From the NCBI GenBank assembly GCA_964036045.1, contig OZ038381.1, positions 123,139,708-123,203,707 of the forward strand: a stretch of 64,000 nt of DNA, in the 5' to 3' direction. Under the pieces are notes generated by a model that ran no database searches, was not told where the DNA came from, and saw only the letters and a program-made list of their open reading frames with translations. Made by a program: the position numbers and the translations under genes. This document shows positions 1-61,650 of the stretch, one piece after another. Source of the DNA: Eutreptiella sp. 'Long Island Sound 2002'. Lineage: Eukaryota; Euglenozoa; Euglenophyceae; Eutreptiales; Eutreptiaceae. Each line of letters starts with the position of its first letter. Positions within the stretch are counted from its first letter, which is position 1.

Positions 1-22
1 TCGGCCTGCTGGCCACTGGCCA

Positions 23-1539
23 TCATGGCCATCCGCAGGCCGGTGGACACTGCCGACATCTGGCCGGCGCACACCTCGGCCTGGGCATGCCACGCTTGTG
101 CGCCGGCCAGGAGGTACCGGACACCGGCGGCACTGCCCCCCTGTCACCCGGGGGGGGCTCGGCACCCTCAGGCCTCTCCACTGCTTGTGCTGGCTGTGCC
201 GCTGGCTTTGCCTTGCGCGACGTCGCCAGGTCGCGCTCCAGAGTTTTCACCTTGGCGGCCAACCGGTCACGCTCCTTGGTGACGTCCGCCAACCGCGACT
301 CGGAGTCCCGCCTGTCCTCGTTGGCCCTGGACAGACGGGCCTCGAGGTCGCGGTTGGCGGCCACCGCGCTGATCGCGCGTGCCTCCCACGCCCCCGCCCG
401 CTCCTTCTCCACCCACTCGGGCACAGAGGCGCTTGGTGCGCCCTCGAAGGTTGACTCACTCGTTGGGTCGTGCCCATGTTCTACTCCTTCGTGTGCCATG
501 CTTTCTCTTGCATCCTTCTCTCTCTCCCTCTTTCTCTTCACAGGGTTGGCATCCACCTCCTCGACTGAGAGGGCCCGGAAGGCCGACTGAAGTCCCTCCA
601 GCGAGTAATCAACCACGTCCACTGGCCCATGTAAGGGCACCGAAGCCCCCCTCTGCCCCCGCCCCCCCACCGGCTCCGCCTGCTCCGCCCGCACCGCCCG
701 CTCCGCCGGGGTGGCCGTACGCGGGGCTTTGGGGGGGGGGGGCTCCGTGTCCCCTTGGGGGCGCCCTTTCCGCTTGCGGGTGGGGGGTTCGTCCTGCTCC
801 TCGACGTCAATGACGTCAGCCACCCCCATCTTCCCGTGCCTCCCCACATGGACGCGCATGGCAAGCCATGCCACGTCCGCCCACTCGGGCCTCCGCTGGT
901 CCCAACCCGTGAGCACATTCAGCCCAAAGACCCCAGCCGTGGTCACCGTCCCCTCCTGCACAATCCGCAACACCGCGGTCTGCACCCGCCAGTGCCCACT
1001 CACAGCCTGTAGGCAAACATGCCCACCAGCTCCTGCCCCGCGGGCAGGTTGGGCCCCCCCTTGACAACAATGGGGCAGGGGAAGGAGATGCGGAAGGTGC
1101 CCTGCACCCCCCGGGACTCCAACACCATGTCCCACAGGTCACTGAGATGCCGCTGCCGCCCATCGGGCCCGGGCGGCACCTGCTGGGTCCAGGCCGGATC
1201 CGGCTGCCTGGCGGCCAGGGTGACCCGGTCCAGGCGGGGGTCGGTGTGGGCCTCGCCCAAGTCGTCGCGGGACGGCATGGGCACCACCACCTCGCGCGCG
1301 ACATGCCCCGTGGCGGTGCTGGCCTCGCTGCCGGTGCCTCCCGCACGTCCAGAGCGCCGCGAACCCTCACTACGCACACCGCCGGCCTCGCTCGGCGGCC
1401 GTCCACCACCGGTGCCTGCGGGCTGGTCGCCACCGGTGCCTCCGGGCCGCTCGGCATGCTCCTTGGGCAATCGGGGCCGGGGCTTGTACTTGCGCTTGCT
1501 GTGGTGCCGAATATCCGGCGACCACGCGGTGAACGGGAC
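23..1539 (-). CDS. E1 coiled-coil exon of the dioxygenase fusion gene (3' part runs off the window)
   Basis: The exon opens after CTGCAG at 1,540 with V-P-F-T-A-W, the same kind of start as in E6 (LNVTPF) and E8 (VPIHYANF). It runs through a basic, Pro/Gly-rich stretch, then a globular part around GHWRVQTAV (about 985-955), an acidic/basic linker with KRKGRPQGD, and a long heptad-like helix (about 450-180) rich in E, R, K, A and L with DLEARLSRANEDRRDSESRL. The frame changes once near 1,015-1,030, so there is an indel or an unseen short intron. Coiled coils in all elements sit at this position, which suggests oligomerisation of the dioxygenase fusion. Partner and substrate are unknown. Confidence 0.6.
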
Positions 1540-1851
1540 CTGCAGATGTGAAGAAGTGTGCAAGGCACAAATTGAGAAAGGGGGAGTGGGCACGAGGCAA
1601 TGCAAGAACAAAAGGAGCAAATTGGACGAAATTCCCAGAAATTCGTACGAAATTCGTACGAAATTCGTACGAATTTCGTACACATTTCGTGCGAATTTCA
1701 AATTTCCAGAATATTCACGCAAATTTATTCACGTGAAATTCGTACGAATTTCGTACGAATTTCGTACGAATTTCGTACGAATTTCACGTGAATTTCGTCA
1801 AATTTGCCAATAAACAAAGCAAACACACAAGCAAGCACACCCTACACTCAC
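1540..1851 (-). repeat. E1 intron filled with TTCGTACGAA palindromes
   Basis: On the minus strand the intron starts CCCAG|GTGAGT at 1,851 and ends CACATCTGCAG| at 1,540. Between 1,625 and 1,800 it holds about a dozen overlapping copies of AATTTCGTACGAATT. The same motif recurs at the right end of E1 (8,885-8,930). The equivalent intron in E5, E6 and E8 holds a different palindrome. Confidence 0.75.
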
Positions 1852-2780
1852 CTGGGCATGTGATGCTCCATGCCCCGGTCTTCGCGCACTTGGGCGACCG
1901 CCACGCTGGGGCCGTGTTCGCCAGATGCCACAGCGTGGTCGGCCGCTCCGGGGGGGCAATGCCGGTCATGGCGAAGTGGATCTCCGACTCCGCATCGGTA
2001 TTGTCCCCCTTGCACACCTCCAGCTGATGCACGCTGCCCACGAAGAACGGCATGCACTGCTCGCCGACCTCGATGCGGCGAGGTCGGAGGCCGGGCCCGA
2101 CCGGGAGAGGAAGGTGGGGTGGAAGGGGCGGGTGGGGGGGCGTGCCGGGACCGACTCGGGCGGGTCGGCGAAGAGGGCCTGGGCAGCATCCCCCTCCCAC
2201 AACCCCACCCTCCCAACCGCCCCCTTCCCCACCCGGAACAGCTGGTCCACGCTGGGGAAGTCCCAGCTGGACAAATCCCCCGCAACCTCCAAGGCCTCCT
2301 TGGGGGGGGTGGGGTCCAGGTGTGTGGTGTTGGGCTGGTGGTGTTTGTGGGCGTGGTCGGGGGTCCACAAGTGAAAAAGAGCCCCCTGCAGCCCATCCTT
2401 TGAGTCGGGGAGGGCAGGCAACCCATGGTGGCGGCTGGTGGCCACCATCAGCAACATGTCCCCCCGATGCAGCTCAACGGTGTCCCAGCGCGCCACCCCC
2501 GCCTCCCCCAGGGCCGTCCCCGCCTGCACCGCCACCTGGTAGTCCTCTGACAAGCAGAGGAAGCTACTTAGGTGGCACCCTGAGATGTCCCTGCTGTTGA
2601 GGGGGAGCACCTCAGGGTGGGTGGCGACATCGGTGTGGGGGAGGTGCGGCCCACTCCCCACACTCGCCACGATGACGCTACCCGGCGTCATTGGGTGGAG
2701 GACCCCAACCCCAGGGACACTTTCGGTGAGGTGCGGGTGGAACTTCTTGAAGAGAGGCCCCCCCACCCCCGACCCTGTAC
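1852..2780 (-). CDS. E1 2OG-Fe(II) dioxygenase, C-terminal exon
   Basis: This continues the gene started at 8,804 after removal of the 5.1-kb insertion. It reads G-T-G-S-G-V-G-G-P-L-F-K-K-F-H from 2,780. The iron-binding HxD triad start is seen as PHTD in GPHLPHTDVATHP and the distal His in ATSRHHGLPALPD, followed by GALFHLWTP, the usual double-stranded beta-helix order. The frame then shifts near 2,080-2,160, around C/G runs, to a readable tail (FFVGSVHQLEVCKG...) that ends in Cys residues before the donor site at 1,851. Family: phytanoyl-CoA/prolyl-hydroxylase type fold. Substrate not deducible. Confidence 0.65.
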
Positions 2781-2956
2781 CTGCGGCTCAATGGTGGCTA
2801 AGTGGAAATGTGAAGTTGGGGCTCATTTGGGGCTCAGTTGTCCATTGCGGTGTCTTTGTGCTTGTTTGTTGTGCGTTTTGCATACTAGGTAGTGTGCATT
2901 TAATGTTTTTAGAAGTTTTAGATACTCACTTGGTCAAGGTTCAAGGTGGGGGGTAC

Positions 2957-4915
2957 TTTTTTTGGCGACGGCTCAGTTGACTGAGCGCCCGACTAAGCCG
3001 TCACTGAGCCGTCACTGAGCAGGCTCACTGAGCGCTCACTGAGCGCTCACTGAGCGCGCCCAATGGCTCAGTGAGCGCTAAGTGAGCGCTCACTGAGAGC
3101 TAATTGGGGGCTCACTCAGGGCACACTCGGGAGTTTCTCCCCCTTTCCGCCCTCTCTTCCCACCCTTGCTGGCCCACACTTCACCCTTTTCACACCAACA
3201 TTGGTCCGCAGTTCTCACCACGTCTTTTCGCCAAGAACTTGAGCGTGCATGCACACATACATACTTGCATACATGTACCCGTGGCGACAAACACACAAAC
3301 ATTCAAACACACACACTGCGTCAAGGACACAAATATCCAAGCACATACACACACATACACCATACACACGTCCACACACACATGCACATGCACAAATTGA
3401 CAACCACATTCATTCTTGTGTGCAATCATCTTGCGTGTACATAAACACGTGGCCACATTGAACCATGTGAAGTGAAGGGCTAAGGAGAGATAGTTACGGG
3501 GTTGGGGTTCGGGGATATGAACCTAACCATTTGCGAGGGTGTTCCTTGTTGCCTTATGACAATGGCACCCCCCCCACACACACACACACGGGCGCGCGCG
3601 CCATCAAGCACAAATAGGGCACAGTGGATATTGCTCGCTTTTGTGAGGTTGATCATGCAACCATCGTGACCTACACCATGACACACTCATTTCCCTCCCT
3701 CCTTATCCCCTCCCGTCCCCTTTTGCCATGCCTGATCCCCCCGCTTACCCCATGCCAACCGCTTCTCTTATCTTGCCTGTCGCGTTCCCTTGCCCTGCCC
3801 TTGCCATGCCTTCCGTATTTGCTGGCCATGGCATCGAGTGCATGATGGTGGCGGCAATGACGATGACCTTTGCAGGTATGTTGTGCTAGTGTGTGTGTTC
3901 GCGGGTGTGTGCTTCTGCCCATGCGCATGTGCGCAAGTGTGGATGGTTTGTTCCCTCTTGGTTTCTCTCATTTAGTGTGTTTGTATGTATGTTTGTGTGT
4001 GAGTCGGGGGGGGGGGGGGGCTTGCTTGGATCGATGCAAGGGTGAAGGTGTCCTTGTGCGTCGCTGTGAGTGTGTGACTGCACTCTTTGGCTTCCGGTTG
4101 TCTAGGTTTGTGTGCGTACGGGGATGCGTGAATGTGTGTACGCGCAGGTGTGTGTGTGTGTGTGTGCCAATGTGTGTGTGTGTGTGTCTGTGTGTTGCAG
4201 CTTTTGCAGCCGTTGTTTTGAATCCTGTTGTTGGTTTTGGTGTTGTGTGGCATAGGCTTTGATTGTGTGCGCATAACATTGTGTTTGTGGCTGCAGACGC
4301 AGTTATGTTTGTGTTTGTGGTTGTGGCTGTGGTTCTGGGCTTGCGTGAGGTCGTTGCCATGGCTGACGTGGTAGCTGTCGTTCTTGGTGTGGTTATGGTA
4401 GTGGCTTTGGTTGCGGCTTTGCTTGTGGGTGTGGGTGTGGGTGTGGGTGTGGGTGTGGGTGTGGGTGTGGGTGTGGGTGTGGGTGTGGGTGTGGGTGTGG
4501 GTGTGGGTGTGGGTGTGGGTGTGGGTGTGTGTCTGCAAGCTGTGTTGTGTGTGGATTTGGTTGTGGTTGTGTTAGTGTGTGTGGCCCTGGCTGTGGCGAA
4601 GGCTGCAGTTGCAGCTTTCACTGTGGCTGCAGCTGTTCTTTGCGTTCTGGCTGTATCTGTGGTGGGGGGGGGTAAAGGACTACAAAGAGGGGGGCTCAAA
4701 TCACCATCCACCCCCTCCCAAAAAAGACCGCACCAAGTTTACAGTGGCAGTGTACAGTGACAGTGTACAATGACAGTGTATAGTGAGAGCATACAGTGAG
4801 TGTAGAGTGACAGTGTAGAGTGCTAGTATAGAGACTTGGGCGTTGTGGCGGACGTACTGTGTGTGGGGATACATTCTATGAGACCTTGGGGAGTACAGTG
4901 TACAGTGTACAGTGT
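2957..4915. repeat. Left arm of the foldback element
   Basis: Pairs in inverted orientation with 5,838-7,695. It begins at CGACGGCTCAGTTG, followed by several GAGCGCTCACTGAGC palindromes (2,990-3,110), then CACA-rich DNA, a G run at about 4,008-4,020 and a (GTGTGG)n tract at about 4,425-4,530. Long frames here only translate the CA/GT repeats and are not genes. Confidence 0.8.
4427..4529 (+). repeat. (GGTGTG)n minisatellite, about 17 copies
   Basis: Uninterrupted hexamer tract in the left arm. Its mirror (CACACC)n in the right arm is shorter (about 12 copies at 6,212-6,283), so the arms differ in repeat number. Confidence 0.9.
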
Positions 4916-5105
4916 ACAGTGACAATGTACAGTGATAGTGTATAGTGACAGTGTGCAGTGGCAGTGTGCAGTGTGCAGTGACAGCGTACTGTGCCAGAAT
5001 ACAGTGTACCATGTACAGTGACAGTAGACAGCGACACCATTGACAGTGTACATGGATAGTGTACAGTGACAGCGTACAGTGACAGTGTACAGTGACAGTG
5101 AACCA
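4740..5105. repeat. (ACAGTG)-type tandem array, left of the palindrome centre
   Basis: Imperfect 6-12-bp units such as GTACAGTGACA repeated through the interval, containing the short arm segment 4,820-4,910 that also pairs with 5,840-5,940. Confidence 0.8.
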
Positions 5106-5262
5106 TGAGTGAGCCCTCACTGAGCGCTCACTGAGCCATTTGGCGCGCTCAGTGAGCGCTCACTGAGCCATTTGGAGCGCTCACTGAGCGCGCGAAACGG
5201 CGCAGTGAGCGCGCCAAATGGCTCAGTGAGCGCTCAGTGAGGGCTCACTCATGGTTCACTGT
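5106..5262. repeat. Central palindrome of the foldback element
   Basis: ATGAGTGAGCCCTCACTGAG... reads back on itself from both sides of about 5,185 with a GCGCGAAACGGCGC centre. The units GAGCGCTCACTGAG are the same as near both ends of the element, so the palindrome family marks ends and centre. Confidence 0.85.
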
Positions 5263-5840
5263 CACTGTACACTGTCACTGCACACTGTGTATTGCACACT
5301 GCACACTACACACTGTGTATTGCACACTGCACAGTGCATACTGTGTATTGCACACTGCACACTGCACAATGTGTGTTACAAATTGCACACTGCACACAGC
5401 AATGCACACTGCACACTGTAATGCACAATGCACACCCTGTAATGCACACTGCGCACTGTGTATTTCACACTGCACACTGCACAGTGCACCGTGTGCAGTG
5501 TGCAATACCCAGTGTGCAGTGGCACACTGCACATTGCGCAGTGCACCGTGTGCAGTGTGCAATGCCCAGTGTGCACTGTGCAGTGTGCAATCCACAGTGT
5601 GCAGTGTGCATTACACAGCGTGTAGTGCGCAGTATACACTGCGCACTGCACACTGTGTACTGCACACTGCACACTGTAATGCACACTACACACTGTGTAT
5701 TGCACACTGCACACTGTAATGCACACTGCAATCTGTATCATGCACACTGCACACTGTGCATTACAAACTGCACACAGCACGTTGTCATGCACACTGCACA
5801 CTGTGTATTGCACACTGCACACTGCACACCGTGTGTTACA
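5263..5840. repeat. (CACTGCACACTG)-type tandem array
   Basis: Degenerate repeats of TGCACACTGCACACTGTGTAT across almost 600 bases. Reading frames here are repeat translations rich in H, T, C and are not coding. Confidence 0.85.
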
Positions 5841-7695
5841 CTGTACTCCCCAAGGTCTCATAGAATGTATCCCCACACATAGTACGTCCGCCACAACGCC
5901 CAAGTCTCTATACTAGCACTCTACACTGTCACTCTACACTCACTGTATGCTCTCACTATACACTGTCATTGTACACTGTCGCTGTACACTGTCTGTAAAC
6001 TTGGTGCGGTCTTTTTTGGGAGGGGGTGGATGGTGATTTGAGCCCCCCTCTTTGCAGTCCTTTACCCCCCCCCCCCCCCCCCACAGCTACAGCCTGAACC
6101 CAAAGAACAGCTGCGGCCATAGTGAAAGCTGCAACTGCAGCCTTCGCCACAGCCAGGGCCACACACACTGACACAACCACAACCAAATCCACACACAACA
6201 CAGCTTGCAGAAACACACCCACACCCACACCCACACCCACACCCACACCCACACCCACACCCACACCCACACCCACAAGCAAAGCCGCAACCACAGCCAC
6301 TACCATAACCACACCAAGAACGACAGCTACCACAACAGCCATGGCAACAACCGTACGCAAGCCCAGAACCACAGCTACAACCACAAACACAAACATACCT
6401 GCGTCTGCAGCCACAAACACAATGTTATGCGCACACAATCAAAGCCTATGCCACACAACACCAAAACCAACAACAACATCCAAAACAACAGCTGCAACAC
6501 ACACACACACACACACACCTGCGCGTACACACATTCACGAATCCACATACACGCACGAACCTAGGCAACCAGAAACCAAAGAACGCAGTCACACACTTAC
6601 AACCACTCACGCACGAAGCCACCTTCACTCACACATCGATCCATGCAACCCCCCCCACACACACACACAAGCAGACATACAAACACACTAAATGAGAGAA
6701 ACCAAGAACGAACAAACCATCTACAGCTGCGCACATGCGCATGGGCACAACTACACACGCATGCAAGCACACACACGCACATCCACACACATAATAGCAC
6801 AACATACCTGCAAAGGCCATCGTCCTTGCCGCCACCATCATGCATGTGATGCCATGGCCAAAAAATAGGAAAGGTAGGACAAAGGGGACGGGACAGGCAA
6901 GAGAACAGAAGGGCTACGCACGAGGGAAGCGGGGGAACGCAGCATAGCGAAAGGGGAGGAGAGGGGATAAGGAGGGAGGGGGATCAACGTGTCATGGTGT
7001 AGGTCAAGATGGTTGTGTGATCAACGTCACAAAAGTTAGCAATGTCCTTTGTGCCCTATTTGTGCTTCATGGTGTGTGTGTGTGTGTATGGGGGGGGGGG
7101 GTGCCATTTTCATGAGGCAACAAGGAACACCCTCGCAAATGGTTAGGTTCATATCCCCGAACCCCAACCCCGTAACCATCTCTCCCTAGCCCTTCACTTC
7201 ACCCGGTTCAATGTGGCCATGTGTTTATGTACACGCAAGATAATTGCACACAAGAATGAATGTGGTTGTCAATTTGTGCATGTGCATGTGTGTGTGGACG
7301 TGTGTATGGTGTATGTGTGTGTATGTGCTTGGATATTTGTGTCCCTGACGCAGTGTGTGTGTTTGGATGTTTGTGTGTTTGTCGCCACGGGTACATGAAT
7401 GCAAGTATGTATGTGTGCATGCACGCTCAAGTTCTTGGAGAAAAGACGTGGTGAGAACTGCGGACCAATGTTGGTGTGAAAAGGGTGAAGTGTGGGCCAG
7501 CAAGGGTGGGAAGAGAGGGCGGAAAGGGGGAGAAACTCCCGAGTGTGCCCTGAGTGAGCCCCCAATTAGCTCTCAGTGAGCGCTCACTGAGCGCTCACTG
7601 AGCCATTAGGCGCGCTCAGTGAGCGCTCAGTGAGCCTGCTCAGTGACGGCTCAGTGACGGCTCAGTCGGGGAGCTCAGACAACTGAGCCGTCGAA
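5841..7695. repeat. Right arm of the foldback element
   Basis: Inverted copy of 2,957-4,915, including the (CACACC)n tract and a run of GCTCAGTGAGC palindromes, closing with CAACTGAGCCGTCG at about 7,695. The arms look highly similar by eye, with indels in the simple repeats. Confidence 0.8.
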
Positions 7696-7893
7696 AAAAA
7701 GAAACCCCCCCGGTCAAATCCTCTTGGCCTAGGGATTGGTGTCCCTTTGGGGACATTCCAAAACCCCAACCCACTCCCGAAAGGCACAACTTTTCACATT
7801 AAACCCCTTGAAAAACACCACTTAGCCCCAAATGAGGCGTTTTAGCCCCAACTGAGCCCCAACTTCACATTCCCTAGTGAGCCGCAGGTATAC

Positions 7894-8804
7894 CCAAGTT
7901 GCTCTTGCTTTGCCAACGCCGGGGGAGCTCAGGATCCTTGGCCTGATCTTCACTCCGCGCGGCGTTGAAAAGGAGCTCAAAATTTTTTGCGACGACTTTT
8001 TCGTCCCTGCTGCCCCACGCCTTCATCACCTTGTTCCACCCCACCTCACAATCCCGTGCTTCCACAAGCCCCCGAAGCACAATGTAGCCGTTCCCATCAA
8101 CAAAGTTGAGGGGCGGCTGGGAGGGGCCAACCCTGTCGGGGGCGGGGTCGGGGTTGCCCATCACCCCATGTGGGGGGTCGGGAAGGGGTTCGGTGCGGAG
8201 GGGGGTTCACTCGAAATGAAGGGGGGGGCCATTGAGGCACCACGGTACCATTGCAAAGAAGTTGTGCTGTAGAAGGTGGGGTGGGTGAGGTCGGGGATGT
8301 GCACCTGGGGGGGGATGGTGGGATGGAAAGGGGCGATGCCCAAATCAGAGAAGGGGAAAAAAGAATGGTCTGCCGGTGCACCTGCAGCAAGATCCTGCAG
8401 GCACACCATGTCGCGGTGGGGGGGGGTATGGACGAGGTTAGTGGTGAGGTACACCTGGACGTGGGCGTCCTTAGGCTTCCCCACAGGGTTAGTGCGCATG
8501 GAATTGAGGAGCTGGTCAACACTGGAAGGGAGAGGGGTTAGATGCAGAAATTTAAGGGAGGGGAGTTGGCGGCGCAGTTCCCTCCACAAGGTTGTGGCCC
8601 ATCCCCTCCCCCCGAGGTAGGATTTGCGGGTGGGGCTGCGCATGTCCATGTGGATGCCCAGCCCACAACATCATCCACCCCTAGCGCCGCCGACAGGTAC
8701 GCCGCCTCCTCCAATTGATGGTGGGAGACGGGGAGGGCTTGGTAGTGGGCGAGGGTGTCGGCTGCGGGGTCGGGGCGAGAGGCCAGGCTGGCGAGCTGGG
8801 ACAT
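7894..8804 (-). CDS. E1 2OG-Fe(II) dioxygenase, N-terminal exon
   Basis: The first ATG is at 8,804 (MSQLASLASRPD). Downstream frames give LPSSVDQLLNS, HTPPHRDMVCLQDL and VHIPDLTHPTFYST, the last matching THIPDITHPTLYST of the E8 dioxygenase. The C-terminal end reads FVDGNGYIVLRGLVEA, the usual opening helix-strand of this fold, then RRWQSKSNLG and the donor at 7,893. Two frame changes occur, one near 8,620-8,650 and one near 8,160 beside G/C runs (for example the run at 8,221-8,228). A palindrome block and the element end lie just upstream, so the promoter should be in 8,805-9,202. Confidence 0.6.
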
Positions 8805-8879
8805 AGTCTGCTAGGACATTGTCAAAAGAGAATGCGAAGAGAGTTCGAGAGATGTGAGAAAGCGAAACAGTGGAAATGA

Positions 8880-9202
8880 GGGTAAATTTGTACGAATTCG
8901 TACGAAATTCGTACGGAATTCGTGCGAATTTCACATTCTCGTGAATCTGTGAATCTAGCGTGAATTTCTGCGTGAATTTGGGTGCGTGAATTTCACATTC
9001 ACGCGAATCTCACGAAATGTGTCTAACCATGCGGCTACTTCAAAACTGTAAATTGCACATATTTGTTGGATCTTACTTTGGGCGAAGGTAGCACGACAAA
9101 AGCACACGATAGCACCAAGTTACGAGCAAAACAAAGCAAAATTGGGTGAAATTCACGGTACCGTGAATCTCGGATTCAAACGGCCGGTTCACGAAGGGTA
9201 CA
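8880..9202. repeat. E1 right terminus with palindromes
   Basis: Holds TTCGTACGAA-type palindromes (8,885-8,930), then TTCAC/GTGAA motifs, the perfect palindrome TTCACGGTACCGTGAA at 9,152-9,167 and the end GTTCACGAAGGGTACA. Bases 8,975-9,202 are close to 22,515-22,741 of the MITE. Confidence 0.8.
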
Positions 9203-10078: not shown

Positions 10079-10084
10079 CGTAAT

Positions 10085-15170: not shown

Positions 15171-15176
15171 GTTAAA

Positions 15177-16692: not shown

Positions 16693-16699
16693 GGGGGAC

Positions 16700-49273: not shown

Positions 49274-49371
49274 GGTGCACAAACAAAGACCTGCGGCACG
49301 TGAGGACGTGGCAAGGGGGTTAGATCATGCAACGGAACGTTGTTGCACGTTCGCACACAGATGGCACACAG

Positions 49372-49572: not shown

Positions 49573-49591
49573 ATGCCCAGCCAGTGCCTGC

Positions 49592-51235: not shown

Positions 51236-53479
51236 CTTCTCGCTGCAGGAGCAGATGGTGCGGCGGGCCTTGTCCACGCGGACGAGGTCCAACATCTCGG
51301 CGTTCTGGGAGCTCAGGGGCGGGGTGAAGTGGGCCATGGCCATCCAGGCCATGCGGCCGGCCCTTGGCTCCCGCACGAACGCAGCGCCCAGTGCGGCGAA
51401 CGAGTACACCACCGTGCCGGCCGTGCAGCGCACGCGGCAGAAGTCGGTGGCCTCGGGGGGGGGAAGCCACCACCGGTGGATGTGCGGAGTGAGGCAGGCA
51501 TCCGCTCTGGCCGCCTCGGCGGTGGGCCCCACGTGCGCGTGGTCGGTGGGGGTCAGAAACAGACCCGCATACCCCCCCTCTTGCAGGAAGAGGACGTCCC
51601 CCATGTAGGGCACCGGGGGGTCCAACGGCTGCTCAGCCTGCGACACGAAGCAGACTGGCTGGGGGATCGCGTCGGGAGTGAGGAAGTCCTCCTCTGCCGG
51701 GGGGGGGGGGGGGGGGGCGGCCTCTCCTCCGCTTCCGCCGGCGCCTCCGCATCCGCCGGCGCCTCCGCATCCGCCGGTGCCTCCGCATCCGCTGGCGCCG
51801 CCGGCATCTCCTCCTCCTCCTGTGCCGCACTCTGTGGGGGGGGGGCGGCATCCGCGTCAGCCGGCGCGGCCGGCCTCTCCTCCGCATCCGCCGGCGCCTC
51901 CGGCATGTCCACCTCGTGGGGGGCAGGCACGGGATCCTGGGGCCGGTACCTGTCCGGGTCGGACCCATACGGGAGGCACAGAGGGGACCCGACTGCAGCC
52001 CCCTCGGCCAGAAGCTCGGAGGGCATCACCGGAACACTGTTCATCAGCTCCGTTACACTCTCCGGCTCTACGGTCAGCATGCGCGACCGGTAGCCGACGG
52101 GTGCAAACGGGATGAACAGTGCCCGGCCAGGCCCGCCCGCACCGCGGTGGATCACCGTCCCGCGGAGGAGCGTCACGCTGCGAAGCGGTTGGATAACAAT
52201 ATCCCACCGATGCGCAGCGTGATAGCCCCCCTGCGTGCCCGGGCACACCTGGAGGGACTTGGACGGGGGAGAGGTGGTGAGGGGGATGAACACGACCATG
52301 CACTGCACTGACTGTTTCACAGACAGTGCAAAATCGCGGTGGGGGATCTGGAAACCCTTCCAGGGTTCTGCCTCCCACCGCTGGATGATCTTGGGGCACA
52401 AGGCCTCAAGTCCCTGCAGCGGTGGGAGGGAGAACCCCAGCAGGGCCAGAACAGCCTGCCAGAGGTCGTCCGGGAGCCAGTGGGCCGACGCTGGAGACCG
52501 TCGTCTGATAGCGCCCCCCACCTTCCCCGGGGGCCTGGAGGTCCACCTCCTCGAGCATCGACGGGTTGAGTTCCACCGTGGCGAGCTCCGCCAGTCTGGC
52601 CCACAGATCCTCGGGGATGATGCGGTCATACTGGCGGTAGCCCGCCGCGGCAAAACCCTCCTCCGTGACGATGGGGGGGTTGGGGATGTCGTGGTTGGCG
52701 ACGGGGTAGGAGTTGTGGAAGGAGGGGTGGGGGCAACCCATGCCAAGCATGGTGAAGGGGGCGTCGGTGCTGTAGAGGGTGGGGTGGGTGATGTCGGGGA
52801 TGTGGGTGCGCAGGCGACGGTTGGTGGAGAACTCCGTGGGAGCTACTGCATCCCACGCCTGCACCTTCACCGACTGGTACCGCACGGCGGCGTCAGTGGC
52901 CGCGCGGTGCGTCCAGCCACTTTTTTTGACTGGATCCACCCACAGCCACTGCTCCTCGGGGTCGAGACCCTGAGGCGGCATCTCCTGCAGGTCGAGAACG
53001 TTAACGAACTCTTTTGACGCTGCAGCAGTGCACAGCTTCAGGGTCTTGTTGAAGGCCTCAAGGGTGACTTGAGAAAGCTTCAACTCGACCGCGAGCGTCG
53101 TGGGGTACCGGCCCATCACGGCACAGCAGAACCTGCTAAGAACCCCCATGGTCAGGGCGAAGTTAACACGGGTGGCGTCAATTCGCCAGACCAAGTGGGG
53201 ATTGCCCGGCTGGTCCCACTTGCCGAAGAGGGCGGCCTCCAGGGGTTCGCGGAGGGGGGGGAGCTGGGGGAAGGATTCGGCGTCCGGGGAGGTGAGGGTG
53301 TAGGGGATGGGAAAATAGCCCCAGGGGAAGTGCTCGGAGCCGACGTTGGCGATGTGGGCGTCGAGCACCGCCTGCACCTCGGGGTTAGGTGGTGCAGCGG
53401 GGGCTGGGGCTGGGGCAGACGTGGGGTTCGTGACTGTCACCTTCTTCCCCTTGCCCTTCTTGGGTTGCTTTGGAGGCAT
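51236..53479 (-). CDS. E8 2OG-Fe(II) dioxygenase with Cys-rich tail
   Basis: ATG at 53,479 (MPPKQPKKGKGKKVTV, basic). N-terminal domain EHFPWGYFPIPYTLTSPDAE, HIPDITHPTLYSTDAPF, then HWLPDDLWQAVLALLGFSL, iron motif FQIPHRDFALSVKQS (His-Arg-Asp), VVFIPLTTSPPSKSLQVCPG, distal His in LRGTVIHRGAGGPGRALF and Arg after it, LPYGSDPDRYRPQDP, a Pro/Ala/Asp repeat, PYMGDVLFLQEGGYAG, and the CSCSEK tail. Frame changes at about 52,500 and in the C/G run near 51,700. Otherwise complete, about 740 residues. Closest to the E6 enzyme. Confidence 0.7.
51700..51912. repeat. G run and (GGCGCCTCCGCATCCGCC)n minisatellite
   Basis: A run of about 16 G at 51,700-51,715 and 18-bp units (APADAE in protein) to about 51,905, inside the dioxygenase. 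Confidence 0.85.
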
Positions 53480-53544
53480 GATAAAGTGAAATGCCTAGAA
53501 GGGAAAGGGAATGCATAAAGGGTGCAAAAGAAGAGGAAGAATGG

Positions 53545-53700
53545 GGCACTTGGCGCGCGCCAAAACCGGCGCGCCAACTCAAGAGTTGGCGCGCCAACTG
53601 CCAAGTTGGCGCGCCAACTTGGCGCGCCAACTCTTGAGTTGGCGCGCGCCAACTGCCAAGTTGGCGCGCCAACTTCGACTTGGCTTCCAAAAAGTTGGCT
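53545..53700. repeat. E8 palindromes, promoter side
   Basis: TTGGCGCGCC units ending in CTTGGCTTCCAAAAAGTTGGC; between the dioxygenase start and the right end. Confidence 0.9.
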
Positions 53701-54059
53701 TCGACCCGAAAAACCCACATATTGCATCATAACAACAAAGCAACGCAACCAAAAGCTGTAAAATATCAATAGTTCCTCACGTTTCATGCACAAGGCGTAG
53801 CAACAACACAGTGCACAAGTACAAGCAAGTTGAATGCTCTCGACATGGAGTTGACCAGGAGTTGGCGAATGTACAGTATCTGGGGTTGGCTTCGTAGTTA
53901 CATAGTTACCCCCCGTGTTACCTTTCATGTAACCCCTTCATCACACTTTGTTTTAGTTACCCCATGGTGGCTGGGCACAACGTCATGCACACATAGTCCC
54001 TTCCCTCCCTGCCCTGCAAGAAGTATCACTGCGCCGTAGGACTGCTGTTTCTTTTGAGT

Positions 54060-55493
54060 TCAAACTTTCAGTTCTGAATGCCACTTCTGGAAACAACCAC
54101 TGTAGGAGTGCAAATGCACATCGCAATGAGCACACTTGAACCAAGTGCGCCCCTTGCATACTTTGCAAGTGCCTCGGGTATCTACAAGCACCGGCGTGTG
54201 CACAGCGTGCCCAGGGGAGACAAACTTTTCCAAAATATCCCATTGGAAGTCCCAAAGGGATTTCTTTTTGGGTATCAAACCTTGGAGTCGGCAGACTGTA
54301 AAGGTATTTACAATCGCGTACCTAAACAAGAAAGCCTTCAAGGCACGGGTCCAACTCTTGAATCTGCCTGTCTCACGGTGTTCTAGTGCCATTTGATTGG
54401 CACTGTCAACACCGTTGGCTAGCTGCCTGTATGCAGCCACAACACGTGGGAGCTCATAACCACCTCTGTGGCGCACCCACTCATTGTCGAACACACAGTT
54501 TGACAGAAATAGAACCACACGTGGTGGTTTGCTACCCACTTTTGGGTTTTTGTAGACGTGGAGGCTATACTTGCCTCCTTTGACATACGTTTCTGCTGCA
54601 ATGGAGGGTCGCATACTATCCCCAGCCAGGGAAACCCCTTCCTGATCCCTTTCGCATAGGAACAAGAAGGGTTGCTGACGCTGTGCCATTTGGTTTGCCA
54701 CTAGGTGGCTTCCAAAGTATGAGTCGCACACAATTGCAGTGCCAGTATGGAGTAGGTCAGCCCATCGGTGTACCATCTCCCGGGCAGTCCGAGGTCCAGC
54801 CACCTGGGGGTGATCCCGGAAGACCCTGACCCTTTTGCCTGCATACAAAAAAATATCAGTTATAAAAGGGTGCACTGAGTCACCCAGGACATACAATTTA
54901 ATGCCTGTGCTATGCGGTTTTCTGGGGATGAACTGCCGCATGGGTCCAGCCCTTTTCCCCTTGTGGGGGACAATGGATTCATCCCCTGCGGCAGCCCACC
55001 CCCATACCCACAGGCTGGACCAATGGGCATTAATAGCCTCAAGGAGCTCTGCAGTACCACGATTGGACAGGCGGTGTATTTTATAATACTCCTCCCTGGT
55101 TAATAGGGAGGCCAAGCCTTTGTGTGCACACAAAGCTGTGGGATGCCATACATCATCGACTCGTCTTGGTCGCCACATCCCCAGCATAACCCTGAATAGG
55201 ATGTAGTTGGTGAGCTTAGGTATCAATTCGCTGGCTCCATTTTTTTCCAACGCCTCACTCAGGCAGCGCAGGATTGGGTGGAACATGTCATCCATGGCCT
55301 CGGTAATGGTGGCATACTTCTTTTTAGGATGTCCCCCAAGGGTAGCTGCTGATAGGGCCATGCTTGGGGGGTAGTCCCCTTCGTTCGAACACCATTGCTC
55401 TCCGCAATGGACGCCGGCTGGGTCGGATGGGCATGGTGGCTGTGGGAAAATGGGTGGACAGGAAAACACCCCCCCCCTTGCACACGTGCACAT
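54060..55493 (-). CDS. E7 piggyBac-like transposase, intact
   Basis: 477 residues without interruption, ATG at 55,493 (an inner ATG at codon 45 is also possible). DDE_Tnp_1_7 layout: Asp171 in AAGDESIVPHKGKR with RQFIPRKPHSTGIKLYVLGDS just after, Asp257 in AIVCDSYFGS, Asp363 in QLANGVDSANQMALEHR, and SRF-like SWTRALKAFLFRYAIVN. The C-terminal end is Cys-rich, CKVCKGRTWFKCAHCD with further His/Cys, as in the piggyBac DNA-binding tail. The catalytic triad is complete. It is a cut-and-paste transposase by family; whether it mobilises E7 is unproven. Confidence 0.92.
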   Translation of the reverse strand: MCTCARGGVFSCPPIFPQPPCPSDPAGVHCGEQWCSNEGDYPPSMALSAATLGGHPKKKYATITEAMDDMFHPILRCLSEALEKNGASELIPKLTNYILFRVMLGMWRPRRVDDVWHPTALCAHKGLASLLTREEYYKIHRLSNRGTAELLEAINAHWSSLWVWGWAAAGDESIVPHKGKRAGPMRQFIPRKPHSTGIKLYVLGDSVHPFITDIFLYAGKRVRVFRDHPQVAGPRTAREMVHRWADLLHTGTAIVCDSYFGSHLVANQMAQRQQPFLFLCERDQEGVSLAGDSMRPSIAAETYVKGGKYSLHVYKNPKVGSKPPRVVLFLSNCVFDNEWVRHRGGYELPRVVAAYRQLANGVDSANQMALEHRETGRFKSWTRALKAFLFRYAIVNTFTVCRLQGLIPKKKSLWDFQWDILEKFVSPGHAVHTPVLVDTRGTCKVCKGRTWFKCAHCDVHLHSYSGCFQKWHSELKV

Positions 55494-55549
55494 CGTTCAC
55501 AAATTACCCCTGAACCCTGAGGCAAAGCTAGAAGGAAAGAATGAGGACG

Positions 55550-55995
55550 TCGGGGTAACACCCCTGGTAACTGGGTAACTGGCAACTGGGATACAAGGGT
55601 GGTAACATTCACCACTGACATAATAAGAACATAGAGGCCACAACAGGCCTGATCAAAATAAAAAGACCCCATCCGACGTCGCCGATGCATCAGTCCGTGA
55701 AGTCCATGCCTTCCTCGCAATCACGTCCACGATCGAGAGTCTCCGCCACTCACTTTTGGGCCTGAGAACAACAGAGGATCATTGCTGAACGATGTTACCA
55801 CGCATGTAACCGTTGGGGTGTTACCCGGGTAACGTGTTGCCATACCCCCAGAGGTGAATACCTGTGTGTTACCGCCCATGTAACCCCTGGGGTGTTACCC
55901 GGGTAACGTGTTGCCATCCCCCCGGAGGTGAATACCTGTGTGTTACCGCCCATGTAACCCCTGGGGTGTTACCCCGGTAACGTGTCACCACACTG
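55550..55995. repeat. E7 palindromes upstream of the piggyBac-like gene
   Basis: GTTACCCGGGTAAC and a 73-bp unit (GGTGAATACCTGTGTGTTACC...) repeated about twice at 55,850-55,985. Confidence 0.85.
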
Positions 55996-56047
55996 CCCCA
56001 TTCACAAAACCAAGGGTACAAATAAAGAAACACACCCTTGCACATCA

Positions 56048-59000
56048 TCACATCGGCGTCTCATCGTCGGCCCCTGGCTGCTCCTCACCCGGTGTCTCCG
56101 AAGGCGGAGGTCCTTGCGGCAGTGGCTGGGGTGGTGGATCCTGGGGCCGGTACCTGTACGGGTCGGACCCATACGGGAGGCTCCCGGAGCTCGAAGGCAT
56201 CTCCGGATCCCGACCGGTGTCGCCAGCATCCTCATTCTGCGTGAGCAGCGGTGCCCCCAGGGCCGGTGGTGGCGAGTAGACCCGTGTCAAAAACGGTGAA
56301 AAACGCAACGGGGATGCAAAATGGCGTGTGGATGCAAAACGCGGATGCACGATTGCTACGTTTTCTACGCATTGTGCGCATGTCATGTCAATGGAAGGCA
56401 CTGCGCACACCACCACTTTGCCGTCCACGGTTGCCGATGGGGTGGATCCTTCGTCCTCGGCCTCGGCGTCTTCCTTGGCCTTGAGTTCCTCCTCGGCCTT
56501 GGGTTCCTCCTCGGCCTTGCGTTCCGCATGGGCAGCCTGACGTTGCAATGGGCGTGCTCCCCGCTGCTCAACTCCCTCGCCGTCAGGGGTGAGTAGGCCT
56601 TTGCCAAGGAGACACCTGAAAACATAGAGAGACACACAGTGGCTCTGCAAAGTACGTGTTACCACCTGTGTAACCCTTGGGGCGTTACCCAGAATTTTTG
56701 TTACCCGGGCTTTCGAAAGTGTTACCGCGTGTGTAACCGATGGGGTGTTACCCAGAATTTTTGTTACCCAGGCTTTCTAAAGTGTTACCGCGTGTGTAAC
56801 CGTTGGAGTGTTACCCAGAATTTTTGTTACCCAGGCTTTCGAAAGTGTTACCGCGTGTGTAACCGTTGGGGTGTTACCCAGAATTGTTGTTACCCAGGCT
56901 TTGGAAAGTGTTACCGCGTGTGTAACCGTTGGGAATTTTTGTTACCCAGCAGCAACAGAGCACAAAAAACATACCAAGGCTTGGTGGTCTGGCCTCCACT
57001 TCCATTGCCTGCACCCTCGCCAGAAGCGCGTTCCGCTCTGCCTCCAGCCGCTGCCGCGCCTCCTCCTCACGGGCCCGCCTCCGCACCCTCTTGTGCTTGT
57101 TCCGCTGCTTCCTCCGCATCTTGGCCCCCTCACTCTCCTGGCTGTCACTGCTGCTGGTTGCACTGCCAAACTCATCACCTGGGTGCATATTCCTGACCTT
57201 GTAGTACTTCCGCTTGTACCTCTGCAGCCTCTCCTGCTGTTCCTGGAGGGTCCCAACCAGACATGGACGCCATTGGCCAGGCAGTTCCAGTGGGGGTGGG
57301 CTCTTGTGGGTGGACCTCAGATGCAGCATGACCCCAATGTGGCGCCAGGTTTGAACAATCCTGGCATCCAGGTCTTCCTGGCTGAGTTCCGCCAGGTCCT
57401 GGGTCCTCAGCTGCAGTGACCCGGGGATACTGGGACCACTCTGCAGGCCTGCACGGAGTTTCTCCAGGTGGGACAAACCTGCAGACAGAGAATATCATTA
57501 CAGACAATTACATTTGTATGTAAGTAGGTCAGTTAGTTCAACACCCCAGGATTGCAACACCATACCTGAGTATGCACTTTCAGTTTTGTGGGCTTTCTCG
57601 GGGCCTCCCTTGAGCTGCGCTGCTGTGGGGCCCTCCCCCAGCCTCTCCGGGTGCCTCTTCGGGGCTTCGGCATCATCATCCTCCACGTCCTTGAGGGCAG
57701 AGCACCCGTCGCAGCTGAGCTCCACCAGCAGCAGATTCACTGTGACAAAGAGTGCAAAGCATGTTACCAGGGACATAAAATGGGTGTTACCCGGTGTTAC
57801 CCGGGAGCAAAAACCTGACACACAGTGTTACCACCCATGTAACCGATGACCTGTTACCCGGGAAAAGTGTTACCCGGACACAAAAACCTGACACACAGTG
57901 TTACCACCCATGTAACCCATGACCTGTTACCCGGGAAAACTGTTACCCGGACACAAAAACCTGACACACAGTGTTACCACCCATGTAACCCTTGCCCTGT
58001 TACCCGCGATTCACGTTACCCAGCAGGAAAAGACAACATACATGCTTCAGTTCGCGCTTCATCATCATTGAGCAACCCCTCGGTCCCCATCTCGTCCCGC
58101 CACTTGTGCTTCAGCCGATCCAGGCACGTCGGGGAAGCTCCGGTGTGTGCCCCTCGAGCCCCAATTCGGTTCACCATGACAGGGATGGCGATTCCCAACC
58201 TACATGGGAACACATGCAGTGGGGAACAGTGAGATGGCAGTTAAACATACCAATGTGCTGTTACCACGTGTGTAACCGTTGACCCGTTACCAGGGTAACA
58301 CGAACCACACACCTTCCAGTCAGTGCCCATCCAAAGCTTTCTCTTCTTCTTGCACTTGTGGCTCTGGGGTCTTCGGCCGCGTTGAGGGGGGTCCCATCTT
58401 CAGCCACAATGGCCGCACCTGTCACCCCCAGACACTGCTGGTAGTGGGTTGCAACCTGTTTGAGGCTGGACCCCAACTGTTCCCTGACATGGGACTTCGC
58501 CCGTTCAAGGTGTTGTAGGTAGGTTGTTGAAGTAAGAGTTTTTTCTGCCCTTGTGGGGCGGGCAGAGATGGACTTTGCCCCACCAGAAGCCGGCCCGGTA
58601 AACATAAAACTGGGGTGTGCCGTCTTCCCTTTCGCCTTTTTTGTTTTCCCCTTGGTTTGTGGTACTGGTTCGTCCTCCTCAGGGGTTCCTTCCTCCTGGA
58701 CCACCACCTCCTCGTCAGTCCCTGGTCCCTGGTCATCATCATCATCATCACTGTCCACCTCCTTGTCAACATCCATTTGGGACCTCTGCCGGACTGCCTT
58801 GGCTGCAACTGAAGCTGGGGTGAGTGTTCGGGTCTGTTTTGGGGGCTTCAAGGCTGATTTGGTGGGGGCTTTGCTGGCTGCTGCTGAATGACTGCCACTG
58901 CCTGTTGCCTGCACCTCCTTGCCCTTGCCCTTCTCTTGCCCCCCTTTGTAAAATCCCCAGGTGTTCCCACACTCCTTTGCCTGAAAGGTCACTGGCCCGT

Positions 59001-59363
59001 GGAGGGTCCAGACATTCCCCCTCATCAACGTCGTAGGCCAACGCCGTCTTCATGGTCAGGGCCGAATGGCTGCCCTTGGAAACCCAGCCGCAAACAAAGT
59101 TGGGCTGGCCTTGTTTCTTGGCCTTCAACTGCAAGGAAACTAAGTGCAGTAAAAATGGGGGGTGTTACCACGTGTGTAACCGGTAACAGGTACGTGTTAC
59201 CCAACCCGTTGAAAACAGGTCACACCAAGCAATGGTGCAAAGGGGATACCTGAAGGACCACAGGAGCCCCGGCACGGGCAACATCACCCCAGCGGACACT
59301 GTACAACGTCGATCCGGCAGTCAGCTCCTTGTGAAACTTCTTGGGAACCGGTGGAAGGGGCAT
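56048..59363 (-). CDS. E7 six-exon gene of unknown function
   Basis: Exons: 59,363-59,250, 59,128-58,313, 58,199-58,042, 57,739-57,566, 57,478-56,975 and 56,615-56,048. Donors and acceptors are canonical (CAG|GTATCC, TTGCAG|, AAG|GTGTGT, TGTAG|, CAT|GTATGT, CAG|GTATGG, CTGCAG|, TTTCAG|) and phases 0, 2, 1, 1 agree across the first four junctions; the last does not. Exon 1 begins MPLPPVPKKFHKELTAG. Exon 2 has a G-run frame change (about 59,020) and an acidic/basic region. Exon 5 has a basic helix (MRRKQRNKHKRVRRRARE). The last exon has a Glu/Lys/Ala helix. No family recognised; nuclear DNA-binding accessory is a guess. Confidence 0.7.
56616..56974 (-). repeat. E7 intron with a 62-bp tandem repeat
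   Basis: About five units of AGTGTTACCGCGTGTGTAAC followed by ...TTACCCAGAATTTTTGTTACCCAGGCTTT. Donor at 56,974, acceptor at 56,616. Confidence 0.85.
57740..58041 (-). repeat. E7 intron with GTTACC palindromes
   Basis: Three near-identical 60-bp units CACACAGTGTTACCACCCAT between donor 58,041 (GTATGT) and acceptor 57,740 (GTCACAG). Confidence 0.85.
58200..58312 (-). repeat. E7 intron with GTTACC palindromes
   Basis: Contains GTTACCACGTGTGTAAC and GTTACCAGGGTAAC. Phase 2, 113 bases. Confidence 0.8.
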
Positions 59364-59399
59364 AATGAGGAAAAACAGGGCCCTAATGGGACATGATTG

Positions 59400-59850
59400 G
59401 CATGTGTAGTGTTACCGCATGTGTAACCGCTGACCTGTTACCCAGGAAAAATGTTACCCAGAGTGAGAGATACCTCTGCAGATCTATTGGGCACATGTGT
59501 AGTGTTACCGCAGGTGTAACCGCTGACCTGTTACCCAGGAAAATTGTTACCCAGAGGGAGAGATGCCTCTGCAGCTCTATTGGGCACAATTTTAGGTTTG
59601 CAAGAAATAGGCACGTCAAATCAAGACAAAAAAATTCATTGTGGAGTGCAAGGGTGTTAAGATCAAACTGACAGGGTCGTGAAGGTCGCGTTTTCTTGAG
59701 GGAATTTTATTTTCAATTATTGTTGCACCTCTGCCCATTTGGTTGTTGTTACCGCTGATGTAACCGCTATGGTGTTACCCCGTATACCTGTTACCGCGAA
59801 ACTCAAGGCTTGCAGCAGAACACACGACAGGCAGGTAACACATTTGCGGT
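59400..59850. repeat. E7 palindromes upstream of the six-exon gene
   Basis: Two units of about 100 bases with TGTTACCGCA and GTGTAACCGCTGACCTGTTACC (59,408 and 59,503), then GTTACCGCTGATGTAACCGC. Likely promoter side. Confidence 0.8.
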
Positions 59851-60025
59851 AACAACAAGCACAAAAAGGCAAACTTTGCAATTCTTCCTGTCACATGTGT
59901 TGAATGAGAGGGTGACACTATGTTACCAAGGTCAGGCACCTCCAAAAACCCCCATATAACCCAACTTGAAAAAAATGACCTGTTACCCCAAATTTGACCC
60001 TGTTACCGCCCTAGATAAAGGAATA

Positions 60026-60649
60026 TTTGTGGGTAAGGGTCTTGGCAACTCTCTTACGCAAGGACGCATTCATAGTTGTGAAAAGTGCGTCACGCTCACC
60101 AACACTCAAACTAATGGAAACCATGAGCAAACGCTCACCCACAAACTCATACAAAGCAGCAGGGAGAAGGGTGTGGGGCATTGCATCGGCATTGGGCCAT
60201 GCAAGAACGGAACGACTATCAACAACAGCAATAACACCTAGTGCTTGCGCATTCACATCCGAAAGCAAAAGATCTTGCCATGAACTTGGCAATTCCGGGA
60301 GACCCTTAATGTCTTCCTCACCCAACGCTAAACGAACAACAACAACACCATGAACACCGTGAGCAAGATCTCCTGCCTCACGAGTGTCCGTGAACCAACG
60401 CTCCACCGATTCATCCTCCTCCAACAACCCAACCTCCAAGGCCCGCCTCACAATCTCGGCGGGCCTATTGCCTTCGGCCACCACCTCATCCTCCTCCTCC
60501 ACCTCCTCCTCCAAATCCACGTCTCCCTCCACCACGTCTTGACCCACACTTGTCCTTGGCGCCCTCCTTGCCACGGCCCCGGCGTCGGTGGGAGGCACGG
60601 AGACCTTCCTCGCCACCTTCTTCTTCGCCGGTTTTTTCTTGCCGGGCAT
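60026..60649 (-). pseudogene. E6a dioxygenase, N-terminal third
   Basis: ATG at 60,649 (MPGKKKPAKKKVARK), acidic stretch, VVVVRLALGEEDIKGLPELP and RKRVAKTLTHKY, then the E7 insertion at 60,025. Nearly identical to the E6b copy. In the outer copy this part, 46,648-45,961 and 38,415-37,675 add up to one open gene. Confidence 0.85.
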
Positions 60650-60767
60650 GTCGTGCAAAAAAGCACTAAGAAAAGGAAAACAGACATGAAGCAAAGTAAA
60701 AGTTTTTCTTTGTCACGTCAAAAGGAGCACAAATTAACCGCCAGTACTGCAGACAGCGTACGGGCAC

Positions 60768-60965
60768 CATAGGCAGCACGCACGCGTTGCGATCTGAGTG
60801 CGTACGCGCCAAAATACCAACGCGTACGCGCCAAAATACCAGCGCGCACGCACTCAGAACGCAACGCGTACGCACTCAGATCGCAACGCGTACGCGCTGG
60901 TTCGCTGGTTCATGCGCGTTACAAAATCAGTGCGTACGCTAACGCGTACGCATACATGTGAACAA
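60768..60965. repeat. E6a palindromes, right end
   Basis: ACGCGTACGC units, copy of 45,735-45,930. Confidence 0.85.
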
Positions 60966-60992
60966 AATGGGGCAGATCTTAGCAGTTACAAA

Positions 60993-61650
60993 GTTGGGGT
61001 GGAAGGGGGTTTTTCGAGGTGGCGGACTTGGGTAACATAGTGGATTCCCTTGATTTGTTCACTAATCATGAAGACTTACACATTTCCAACTTTTTGCGCA
61101 ATGTGTTACCCGTGCATGTTACCCCGGTCATGGACATGGTCTTATAATCCTTCGATTTTTGTTTATGTTCAAACCTTTTTGATGGTAATTTGATGTTGTA
61201 ACGCTATTGCACCGTATGTAGATGCAAACTGCATGCATGTGATGTTTTCTCTCTTGATTTGATGAAGTAAGCCTCATTAGGATCCAAACTCAGAGTAATC
61301 CAATCCAGTCATTTTTTTTGCAAAACCCCTTCTTGGGAAGGCATTTCTGGGGAACTCGCCAGCGGTTACACCCGCGGTAACACCTTTCATCGGCAAAATG
61401 CGGTCTGGGGAACACATTCCTGGGGAACGCGCCCGCGGTTACACGCCCGGTAACATATTTTTCACGCAAAATGCCATCTGGGTAACACATTTCTGGGGAA
61501 CGTGCCCGCGGTTACACGCCCGGTAACACTGGGGAACGCCTTGTTCCCCAGACAAAAATAGAAAATCCTCAATATCTCCATGGTCATTTTTCTGGTAAAT
61601 TGTGTTACCCAGACCCCATGAATTCCCAGTACTAACCCGAGATAAAGGAA
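60993..61650. repeat. Right remainder of the E7-family MITE
   Basis: Three CGGTTACAC-CGGTAACA palindromes with GGGGAACG linkers (61,350-61,540) and the right terminal repeat. No coding sequence. Confidence 0.8.

Follow-up and report, generated by a model that had tools for sequence, protein, structure and literature searches.

The current work concerns a 64-kb stretch of the genome of Eutreptiella sp. (C4:123139708-123203707, called the window below and always meant at its full length; the genome comprises 2.28 Gb in 2205 contigs) and the nested DNA transposons that occupy it. Several of these elements repeat a short palindrome of their own, mostly one with CpG, in noncoding arrays near their ends and between their genes. 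Exact copies of each palindrome core tested were found in the window only inside the element to which it belongs.

Transposons of the window and their palindromes

The borders of the elements were set by self-comparison of the window and by inspection of the element ends. The labels are those of this analysis wherever the initial annotation, made from the letters of the window, supplied no coordinates. Terminal inverted repeats (TIRs) and target-site duplications (TSDs) are given where they were recognised.

1600..9204, no strand assigned: E1, TTCGTACGAA iterated with an 11-bp unit; dioxygenase-like pieces on the minus strand
2809..7869, no strand assigned: foldback insert with long inverted arms and iterated TGAGCGCTCA; borders approximate
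9205..12429, minus strand: E2, decayed; coiled-coil protein at 9293-10132 and dioxygenase-like frames at 10234-11779; borders arbitrary
12430..19324, minus strand: E3, TIR TGGGGTGCGCCGCTGGAAGCGCTC; transposase at 12893-14444, dioxygenase-like frame at 17176-18302; TTCCAGCGCTGGAA arrays
19867..20988, plus strand: E4 remnant; transposase piece at 19867-20826 akin to those of E3 and E5; AGTAAGGGG and CCCCCTTAC repeats at 20890-20988
23028..28047, minus strand: E5, 36-bp TIR beginning TGGGATGCAGCG, TSD CA; transposase at 23411-25163; palindromes GTTATCGCGCGATAAC and TAACTAGTTA
32531..60990, minus strand: E6a, TIR TGTAACTGCTAAGATCTG, TSD AA; transposase open frame at 33437-35257, coiled-coil frame at 36134-37399
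38416..45958, minus strand: E6b, inside E6a, TSD TT; transposase at 39322-41006, coiled-coil protein at 42042-43198, dioxygenase-like protein at 43557-45617
46652..60022, minus strand: E9, piggyBac superfamily, inside E6a; transposase at 54063-55496; TIR TCCTTTATCTAGGG, TSD ATAT, with the empty site in E6b
46957..53902, minus strand: E8, inside E9, TIR TGTAACTACGAAGCCAA, TSD TA; transposase at 47460-49273, coiled-coil protein at 49595-50833, dioxygenase-like protein at 51242-53479

E1 is split by the foldback insert; its right border was taken from a related locus, and no left border was found in the window. E3 is flanked on both sides by the repeat CTCT (at least 2 bp). E6a is interrupted by E6b and E9, both nested in it, and the target of E6b, GGAACATTGTCC, is present in an uninterrupted version within E6b itself. 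The TIRs of E6 and E8 have the start TGTAACT in common, and those of E3 and E5 share TGGGRTGC.

A scan of the window for perfect palindromes yielded clusters with distinct cores: TTCGTACGAA in E1, TGAGCGCTCA in the foldback insert, CCAGCGCTGG in E3, TAACTAGTTA and ATCGCGCGAT in E5, CGCGTACGCG in E6, and GGCGCGCGCC and TGGCGCGCCA in E8. Exact copies were confined to the element concerned for E1 TTCGTACGAA (8 of 8), the foldback insert TGAGCGCTCA (9 of 9), E3 CCAGCGCTGG (15 of 15), E5 TATCGCGCGATA (6 of 6), E6 CGCGTACGCG (16 of 16), and E8 GGCGCGCGCC (14 of 14) and TGGCGCGCCA (11 of 11). In 20 dinucleotide shuffles of the window, which served as the null, the mean was 0 to 0.2 copies for each of these cores. 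With up to one mismatch, all sites still fell in their own element for E6 (44/44), the foldback insert (13/13) and E5 (7/7 and 8/8); strays appeared for E1, E3 and E8, in which 12 of 15, 19 of 22, and 17 of 21 and 13 of 16 sites, respectively, were the element's own.

The initial annotation had proposed that each element carries a private CpG palindrome at both ends, in gene gaps and in introns. The privacy of the palindromes is borne out by the exclusive exact cores of E1, the foldback insert, E3, E5, E6 and E8, but not by E2 (9205-12429), where the palindrome scan found no iterated perfect palindrome and only degenerate copies of TTTTGCGTGC and TTTTACGCGCGCAAAA were read by eye. CpG is present in most of the palindromes but not in the second palindrome of E5, TAACTAGTTA; E9 carries mainly a half-site, GTTACC. 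Arrays were found near the ends and in gene gaps of E3, E5, E6 and E8, and in no case did an array have to be assigned to an intron.

In each of these four elements the arrays form four regions, one pair towards the ends and one pair in the gaps that separate gene blocks; the blocks of E3 and E5 are open frames and not confirmed gene models.

12672..19145, no strand assigned: E3 arrays at 12672-12784, 14539-14727, 16457-16690 and 18969-19145
23228..27870, no strand assigned: E5 arrays at 23228-23338, 25122-25323, 26146-26335 and 27732-27870
38448..45860, no strand assigned: E6b arrays (AACGCGTACGCGTT), centres at 38448-38867, 41194-41327, 43320-43452 and 45749-45859, mostly 22 or 44 bp apart
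47180..53684, no strand assigned: E8 arrays of TTGG(CG)2-3CCAA, mostly with 8-bp spacers, at 47180-47275, 49370-49570, 50980-51184 and 53545-53684

Measured inward from the TIRs, the outer arrays are found at about 30 to 300 bp. Coding intervals make up 65% of E6b and 73% of E8; among sites with at most one mismatch, those within coding intervals number 0 of 23 in E6b and, in E8, 1 of 17 for the long word and 0 of 13 for the short word.

Spacing and information content were analysed on site lists compiled by hand, with three E6 sites added. The palindrome centres are 22, 44 or 67 bp apart in E6 (n=15), 20-22 bp apart in E8 save for distances of 15 and 13 (n=25; set by the 8-bp spacer), 21-24 or 43-44 bp apart in E3 (n=15), 11 bp apart with one distance of 53 in E1 (n=8), and 11, 24, 32 and 74 bp apart in the foldback insert (n=6). 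We read most of these distances as about one, two or four turns of the helix, which would put the sites on approximately one of its faces. For E6 and E8 the information sits in the palindrome, most spacer columns holding 0-0.4 bit; the spacer sequence is thus near random, and the regular spacing has outlived it.

In the adjoining 200 kb of the same contig there was no cluster of at least four copies of one exact 10-bp core, TA/AT runs apart, a threshold that would also miss E9, and nine proteins of the window gave no tblastn match there (E up to 1e-4). The long frames of this neighbouring stretch include some that look retroelement-like by eye.

No gene was recognised in the foldback insert, the frames of which were not searched against families; at 4148-6490 it contains long GT and TGTGGG simple repeats together with repeats of the CACTGCA type. 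At 28560-28955 the sequence GCCGTAACTTACG is iterated near a broken piggyBac transposase (30584-31562), perhaps representing a further family with its own word. Scans for tRNAs and against Rfam gave no match.

Encoded proteins

E6 and E8 each carry three genes on one strand, encoding a transposase, a protein in which composition points to a long coiled coil (P0002 and P0006), and a dioxygenase-like protein. The transposases of the window form two groups, E6/E8 (36% identity over 569 amino acids, 337 bits) and E3/E4/E5 (30-34%). In an alignment read by eye they share the pattern D, D, C(2)C, H(4)H, E, with the apparent motifs VDGT, VDAT or PDAT at the first D, VAD or GDG at the second, CWxC, HLWVDH, HWCLAH, HWTVAH or HWAACH, and EERH, TEYR or IEYR at the E.

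The CMCT clade (CACTA/EnSpm, Plavaka, ESTA and Transib) is described, in the available text, as having a DDE transposase with C(2)C and H(3-4)H motifs between the second D and the E (PMC12730594, Kojima 2025). Both motifs are found here. The clade's TSDs of 2-5 bp are matched by the TT of E6b with its uninterrupted target; the TSDs AA, TA, CA and CT(CT) were read at single insertions without an empty site. The termini of the clade are in most cases 5'-CA..TG-3', whereas the TIRs here start with TGTAACT, TGGGGTG or TGGGATG. None of these CMCT-like transposases matched Pfam above the curated cut-off, and the PDB sequence search returned nothing beyond one chance match at E 0.77. The structure model of the transposase has a low predicted local distance difference test score (pLDDT 39) and the fold search based on it was uninformative; a RAG1 match at rank 7 (probability 0.07) was not accepted as evidence. 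No relatives of P0001, the query of the E6 transposase search described below, were confirmed in viral contigs. As part of the explanation preferred below, the motifs and termini would make the elements other than E9 several families of one cut-and-paste DNA transposon lineage, with a CMCT-like DDE transposase, TIRs starting with TG, and 2-bp TSDs.

Of the three proteins that E6 and E8 encode, the one with the coiled coil shows the weakest conservation. Its two versions align in the coiled-coil part (31% over 145 amino acids, 31 bits), while the dioxygenase-like proteins show 30% identity over 316 amino acids (112 bits). E3 and E5 share a frame resembling this third protein (25% over 132 amino acids). 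Such divergence would fit a DNA-binding protein, or reader, that changes together with the palindrome, or word, of its family.

The dioxygenase-like protein carries HxD...HRGAGG motifs. P0013, a gene model of 731 amino acids, has 52 member sequences in the protein collection, and the joined E6 reading (686 amino acids) agrees with it at 98%. A profile built from five such proteins retrieved DhiD and FtmOx1, which we take to be PhyH-type enzymes, from the PDB at E 0.06-0.12, a weak result ranking below a likely chance match at E 0.01. The HRD, HTD or HSD ... HxG motifs align with the HRD and H(A/C)GG metal ligands of these two enzymes; our reading of E3 has Arg in place of the first His (RRD), and the E3 piece matches Pfam PhyH at E 0.0011, below the cut-off. 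Neither TET nor CMD1 was among the 13 profile-against-PDB matches up to E 10, and a TET/JBP assignment was rejected for want of any family match in the searches. The structure model is again of low confidence (pLDDT 27). The protein may thus be called 2-oxoglutarate/Fe(II)-dioxygenase-like, and at best weakly PhyH-like.

E9 belongs to another superfamily. Its transposase matches Pfam DDE_Tnp_1_7 (E 3.6e-21; 76.3 bits against a cut-off of 22.4), and it resembles piggyBac elements in this domain and in the 4-bp length of its TSD. The usual piggyBac target is TTAA; E9 departs from piggyBac in its TSD ATAT, seen at one insertion with an empty site, in further open frames, and in its GTTACC repeats. 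The E9 motif is mainly this non-palindromic half-site, with three exact copies of TTACCCGGGTAA, and between several open frames GTTACC/GTAACC recurs with unit lengths of 63, 73-74 and 93 bp. The E9 piggyBac protein had no match in phages. A peptide, PYGSDPxRYRPQDP, is common to the E9 frame at 56051-56776 and the C-terminal part of the E8 dioxygenase frame (about 51972, minus strand; 59% over 32 amino acids), which suggests exchange between the elements or a shared partner.

Copies elsewhere in the genome and evolution of the sites

The E8 14-mer has 4684 copies in the genome versus 1 for its reversed control, and the E6 word has 162 versus 8. E8 words are present in all five fetched loci with E8 sequence (L005-L007, L028 and L029, taken from the start of the word-match listing); these loci were located by the E8 word, so they are not an independent test. 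L005 is 87-98% identical to E8, depending on the segment, with arrays at the same places. At about 7759-8543 of the joined stretch L031+L007, a cluster of seven AGACCGGTCT copies lies beside an E8 insertion.

A test independent of the word was made by a transposase search, which gave 6388 first-look candidates; 72 E6 matches were scored and listed, and 10 of them were picked by hand for divergence (80-91% protein identity). The E6 word is present 5' of the gene in every one of the ten, with 1-4 exact copies per flank and 3-6 when up to one mismatch is allowed. In the 3' flank, six have it exactly and eight with at most one mismatch. Most spacings in these copies deviate from a multiple of 11 by no more than 1 bp. 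The E1 core, which shares CGTACG with the E6 core, gave single one-mismatch matches in seven of the ten copies, and the E3 core gave one such match among all of them.

Other families were met at some of the fetched loci. L029 carries nine E1 words together with the end of an E1-family element (91.6% over 322 bp), and L006+L030 contains E5 sequence (95-98%) with E5 words. A new family, E10, lies at 5480-7511 of L006 and in L030 (joined stretch to 7860); its transposase belongs to the group of E3/E4/E5 (group B; 30% identity to E5) and is flanked by a palindrome of its own, AGTATACGGCCGTATACT, at 22-bp spacing. The proposal that the word belongs to the family is thus upheld by the ten E6 copies found through their transposase and by the different word of E10, and the E5 and E1 words recur together with E5 or E1 sequence at one further locus each. 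Unrelated palindromes within one family, or palindromes absent from most full-length copies, had been named as outcomes that would speak against the proposal; E2 apart, neither was seen among the sampled copies.

Between E8 and L005, identity is 259/270 at palindrome bases versus 227/270 in spacers (Fisher p 5e-6) and 5027/5506 in the rest of the element (p 0.005 versus palindromes). Seventy-five E8 sites lie within two mismatches of the word, of which 55 are perfect. In these sites mismatches occupy 17 of 450 CpG positions versus 9 of 600 others (p 0.026), and 12 of the 17 are C>T or G>A; no excess at CpG positions was found in E6 (9 in 8 columns versus 9 in 6) or E1 (5 in 4 versus 44 in 10). 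In the window, CpG stands at 0.71 of expectation and TpG at 1.36. Methylation at the palindromes is hinted at by these base changes.

Interpretation and comparison with known systems

The explanation that we prefer, and in which we have moderate confidence, is that the private palindromes are family-specific cis arrays bound by a protein that the element itself encodes, as TNPA does in CACTA elements or VANC in VANDAL elements. The arrays would present sites on about the same helix face to a probably dimeric reader, for which the coiled-coil protein is the best candidate. Such a reader may bind only within its own family, at ends and promoters, marking these copies for transposition and keeping them unsilenced, and the dioxygenase-like protein would be its likely effector on DNA or chromatin. 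That the foldback insert keeps a word of its own while having no recognised gene is expected of cis sites served in trans. A bolder version is sequence-addressed demethylation: a dimeric private reader, sitting on CpG palindromes in helical register, would bring the element's own dioxygenase to oxidise methylated CpG, a fast-evolving key and lock would keep the families separate, and the piggyBac element would have evolved the scheme independently. We put this forward tentatively, as a possibility with the balance against it.

Several observations weigh against the preferred explanation. E2 has its degenerate copies only. Two of the ten diverged E6 copies lack the word in the 3' flank examined, one of these flanks having E5 motifs, which suggests nesting; moreover, the ten copies share descent and are not ten independent tests. 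The low similarity of the third protein equally fits relaxed constraint, and no recognised DNA-binding domain was found in the coiled-coil proteins. E9, a piggyBac element, has a private motif repeated between its frames as well, and the habit thus extends beyond the transposon lineage of the other elements. Centre spacings in E5 are looser (n=12; resultant length R 0.67 at 10.5 bp), and the resultant lengths at 10.5 bp, from 0.67 (E5) to 1.0 (E1), come with no null for phase. Finally, the spacers are conserved too in E3 (outer columns 1.1-1.7 bits) and in the foldback insert, so that recent tandem duplication can explain the regularity of these two and partly that of the others.

The reader could also be the transposase itself, the palindromes then being iterated subterminal sites and the internal arrays leftovers or sites of repression. 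The position of the outer arrays inside the TIRs resembles that of subterminal repeats, and the foldback insert keeps its sites while having no recognised genes. Two of the four array regions in E3, E5, E6 and E8, however, lie between gene blocks, and the E6 and E8 transposases align over 569 amino acids whereas the third protein, in the same pair, aligns only in its coiled coil; we consider this explanation unlikely. Host transcription factors are a still less probable answer. Under it the arrays would be promoters, enhancers or insulators with a different host site for each family, in agreement with sites that stand up- and downstream of genes and avoid coding sequence, and with the same habit in E9, which has another transposase; against it, the word differs from family to family and the adjoining 200 kb contain no such cluster.

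A role of the palindromes as hairpins or cruciforms, or an origin by replication slippage without any function, appears the most improbable of these proposals, although whole 20-22 bp units have been gained and lost between copies. Because any one substitution destroys the symmetry of a palindrome, compensation can be tested at two-mismatch sites only. Such sites are still self-complementary in 3 of 4 cases in the foldback insert and 4 of 20 in E1, counts that hinge on the consensus flanks chosen, and in 0 of 6 in E8, 0 of 6 in E6 and 0 of 2 in E5, a weak argument from few informative sites; E3 has none. These counts lean weakly towards sequence over DNA folding. The better argument is the uniform word, the same in all arrays of an element and in its sampled copies, for which structure alone would have no need.

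A private motif of this kind has precedents. In the available text of PMC5735166 and PMC10398659, the VANDAL elements of Arabidopsis (MULE) are described as having short motifs that are specific to the family, rare in other elements, and repeated in noncoding sequence, introns and upstream regions among it; the element-encoded VANC binds the motif and induces loss of DNA methylation, and motif and VANC change together, with turnover of tandem repeats. Methylation loss is also cited for Spm (PMC10398659). For CACTA/EnSpm, family-specific subterminal repeats are linked to a poorly conserved, TNPA-like second protein (available text of PMC2613891). The statement of the initial annotation that no described transposon group has such an arrangement therefore fails in principle. 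In the open-licence texts of PubMed Central, no description of elements with this particular arrangement was found.

The elements of the window share with VANDAL the family-specific iterated noncoding motif. They differ from the VANC21 motif, described in the available text as nine bases in arrays of one orientation, in having palindromes of about 10-18 bp, mostly with CpG and often spaced by helical turns. Their transposase is CMCT-like, no MULE-type Pfam match was found among the frames scanned (a VANC homologue was not sought by sequence), and they encode a dioxygenase-like protein, none being mentioned for VANDAL in the available text of PMC5735166 and PMC10398659. With CACTA/EnSpm, as far as described in the available text of PMC2613891, they have in common the C(2)C and H(4)H motifs, a short TSD, family-specific repeats and a poorly conserved extra protein; unlike CACTA/EnSpm, they have TG and not CA termini, repeats that also fill gene gaps, a dioxygenase-like gene and no Pfam transposase match above the curated cut-off. 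The available text of PMC12730594 describes elements with a transposase and a dioxygenase, among them PHISTA with a third protein, and ESTA, a CMCT lineage with TA duplications. The elements here agree in the pairing of the two enzymes and, with PHISTA, in the third protein, but their dioxygenase-like protein has no Tet_JBP match. In that text, term searches found 'palindrom' once, in another sense, and neither 'subterminal' nor 'tandem repeat'.

Thus, the principle of a private iterated motif joined to an element protein is already known from plants, whereas the lineage, the regular spacing and the extra dioxygenase-like gene look new; the elements also differ from the known systems in their palindromic, mostly CpG-bearing sites and in the use of gene gaps. 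Many parallel families in one genome, each with a diverged word and presumed reader, would allow the evolution of DNA-binding specificity and of anti-silencing to be compared directly. If the preferred explanation is true, the principle of VANC and TNPA would extend to elements that carry their own candidate effector enzyme.

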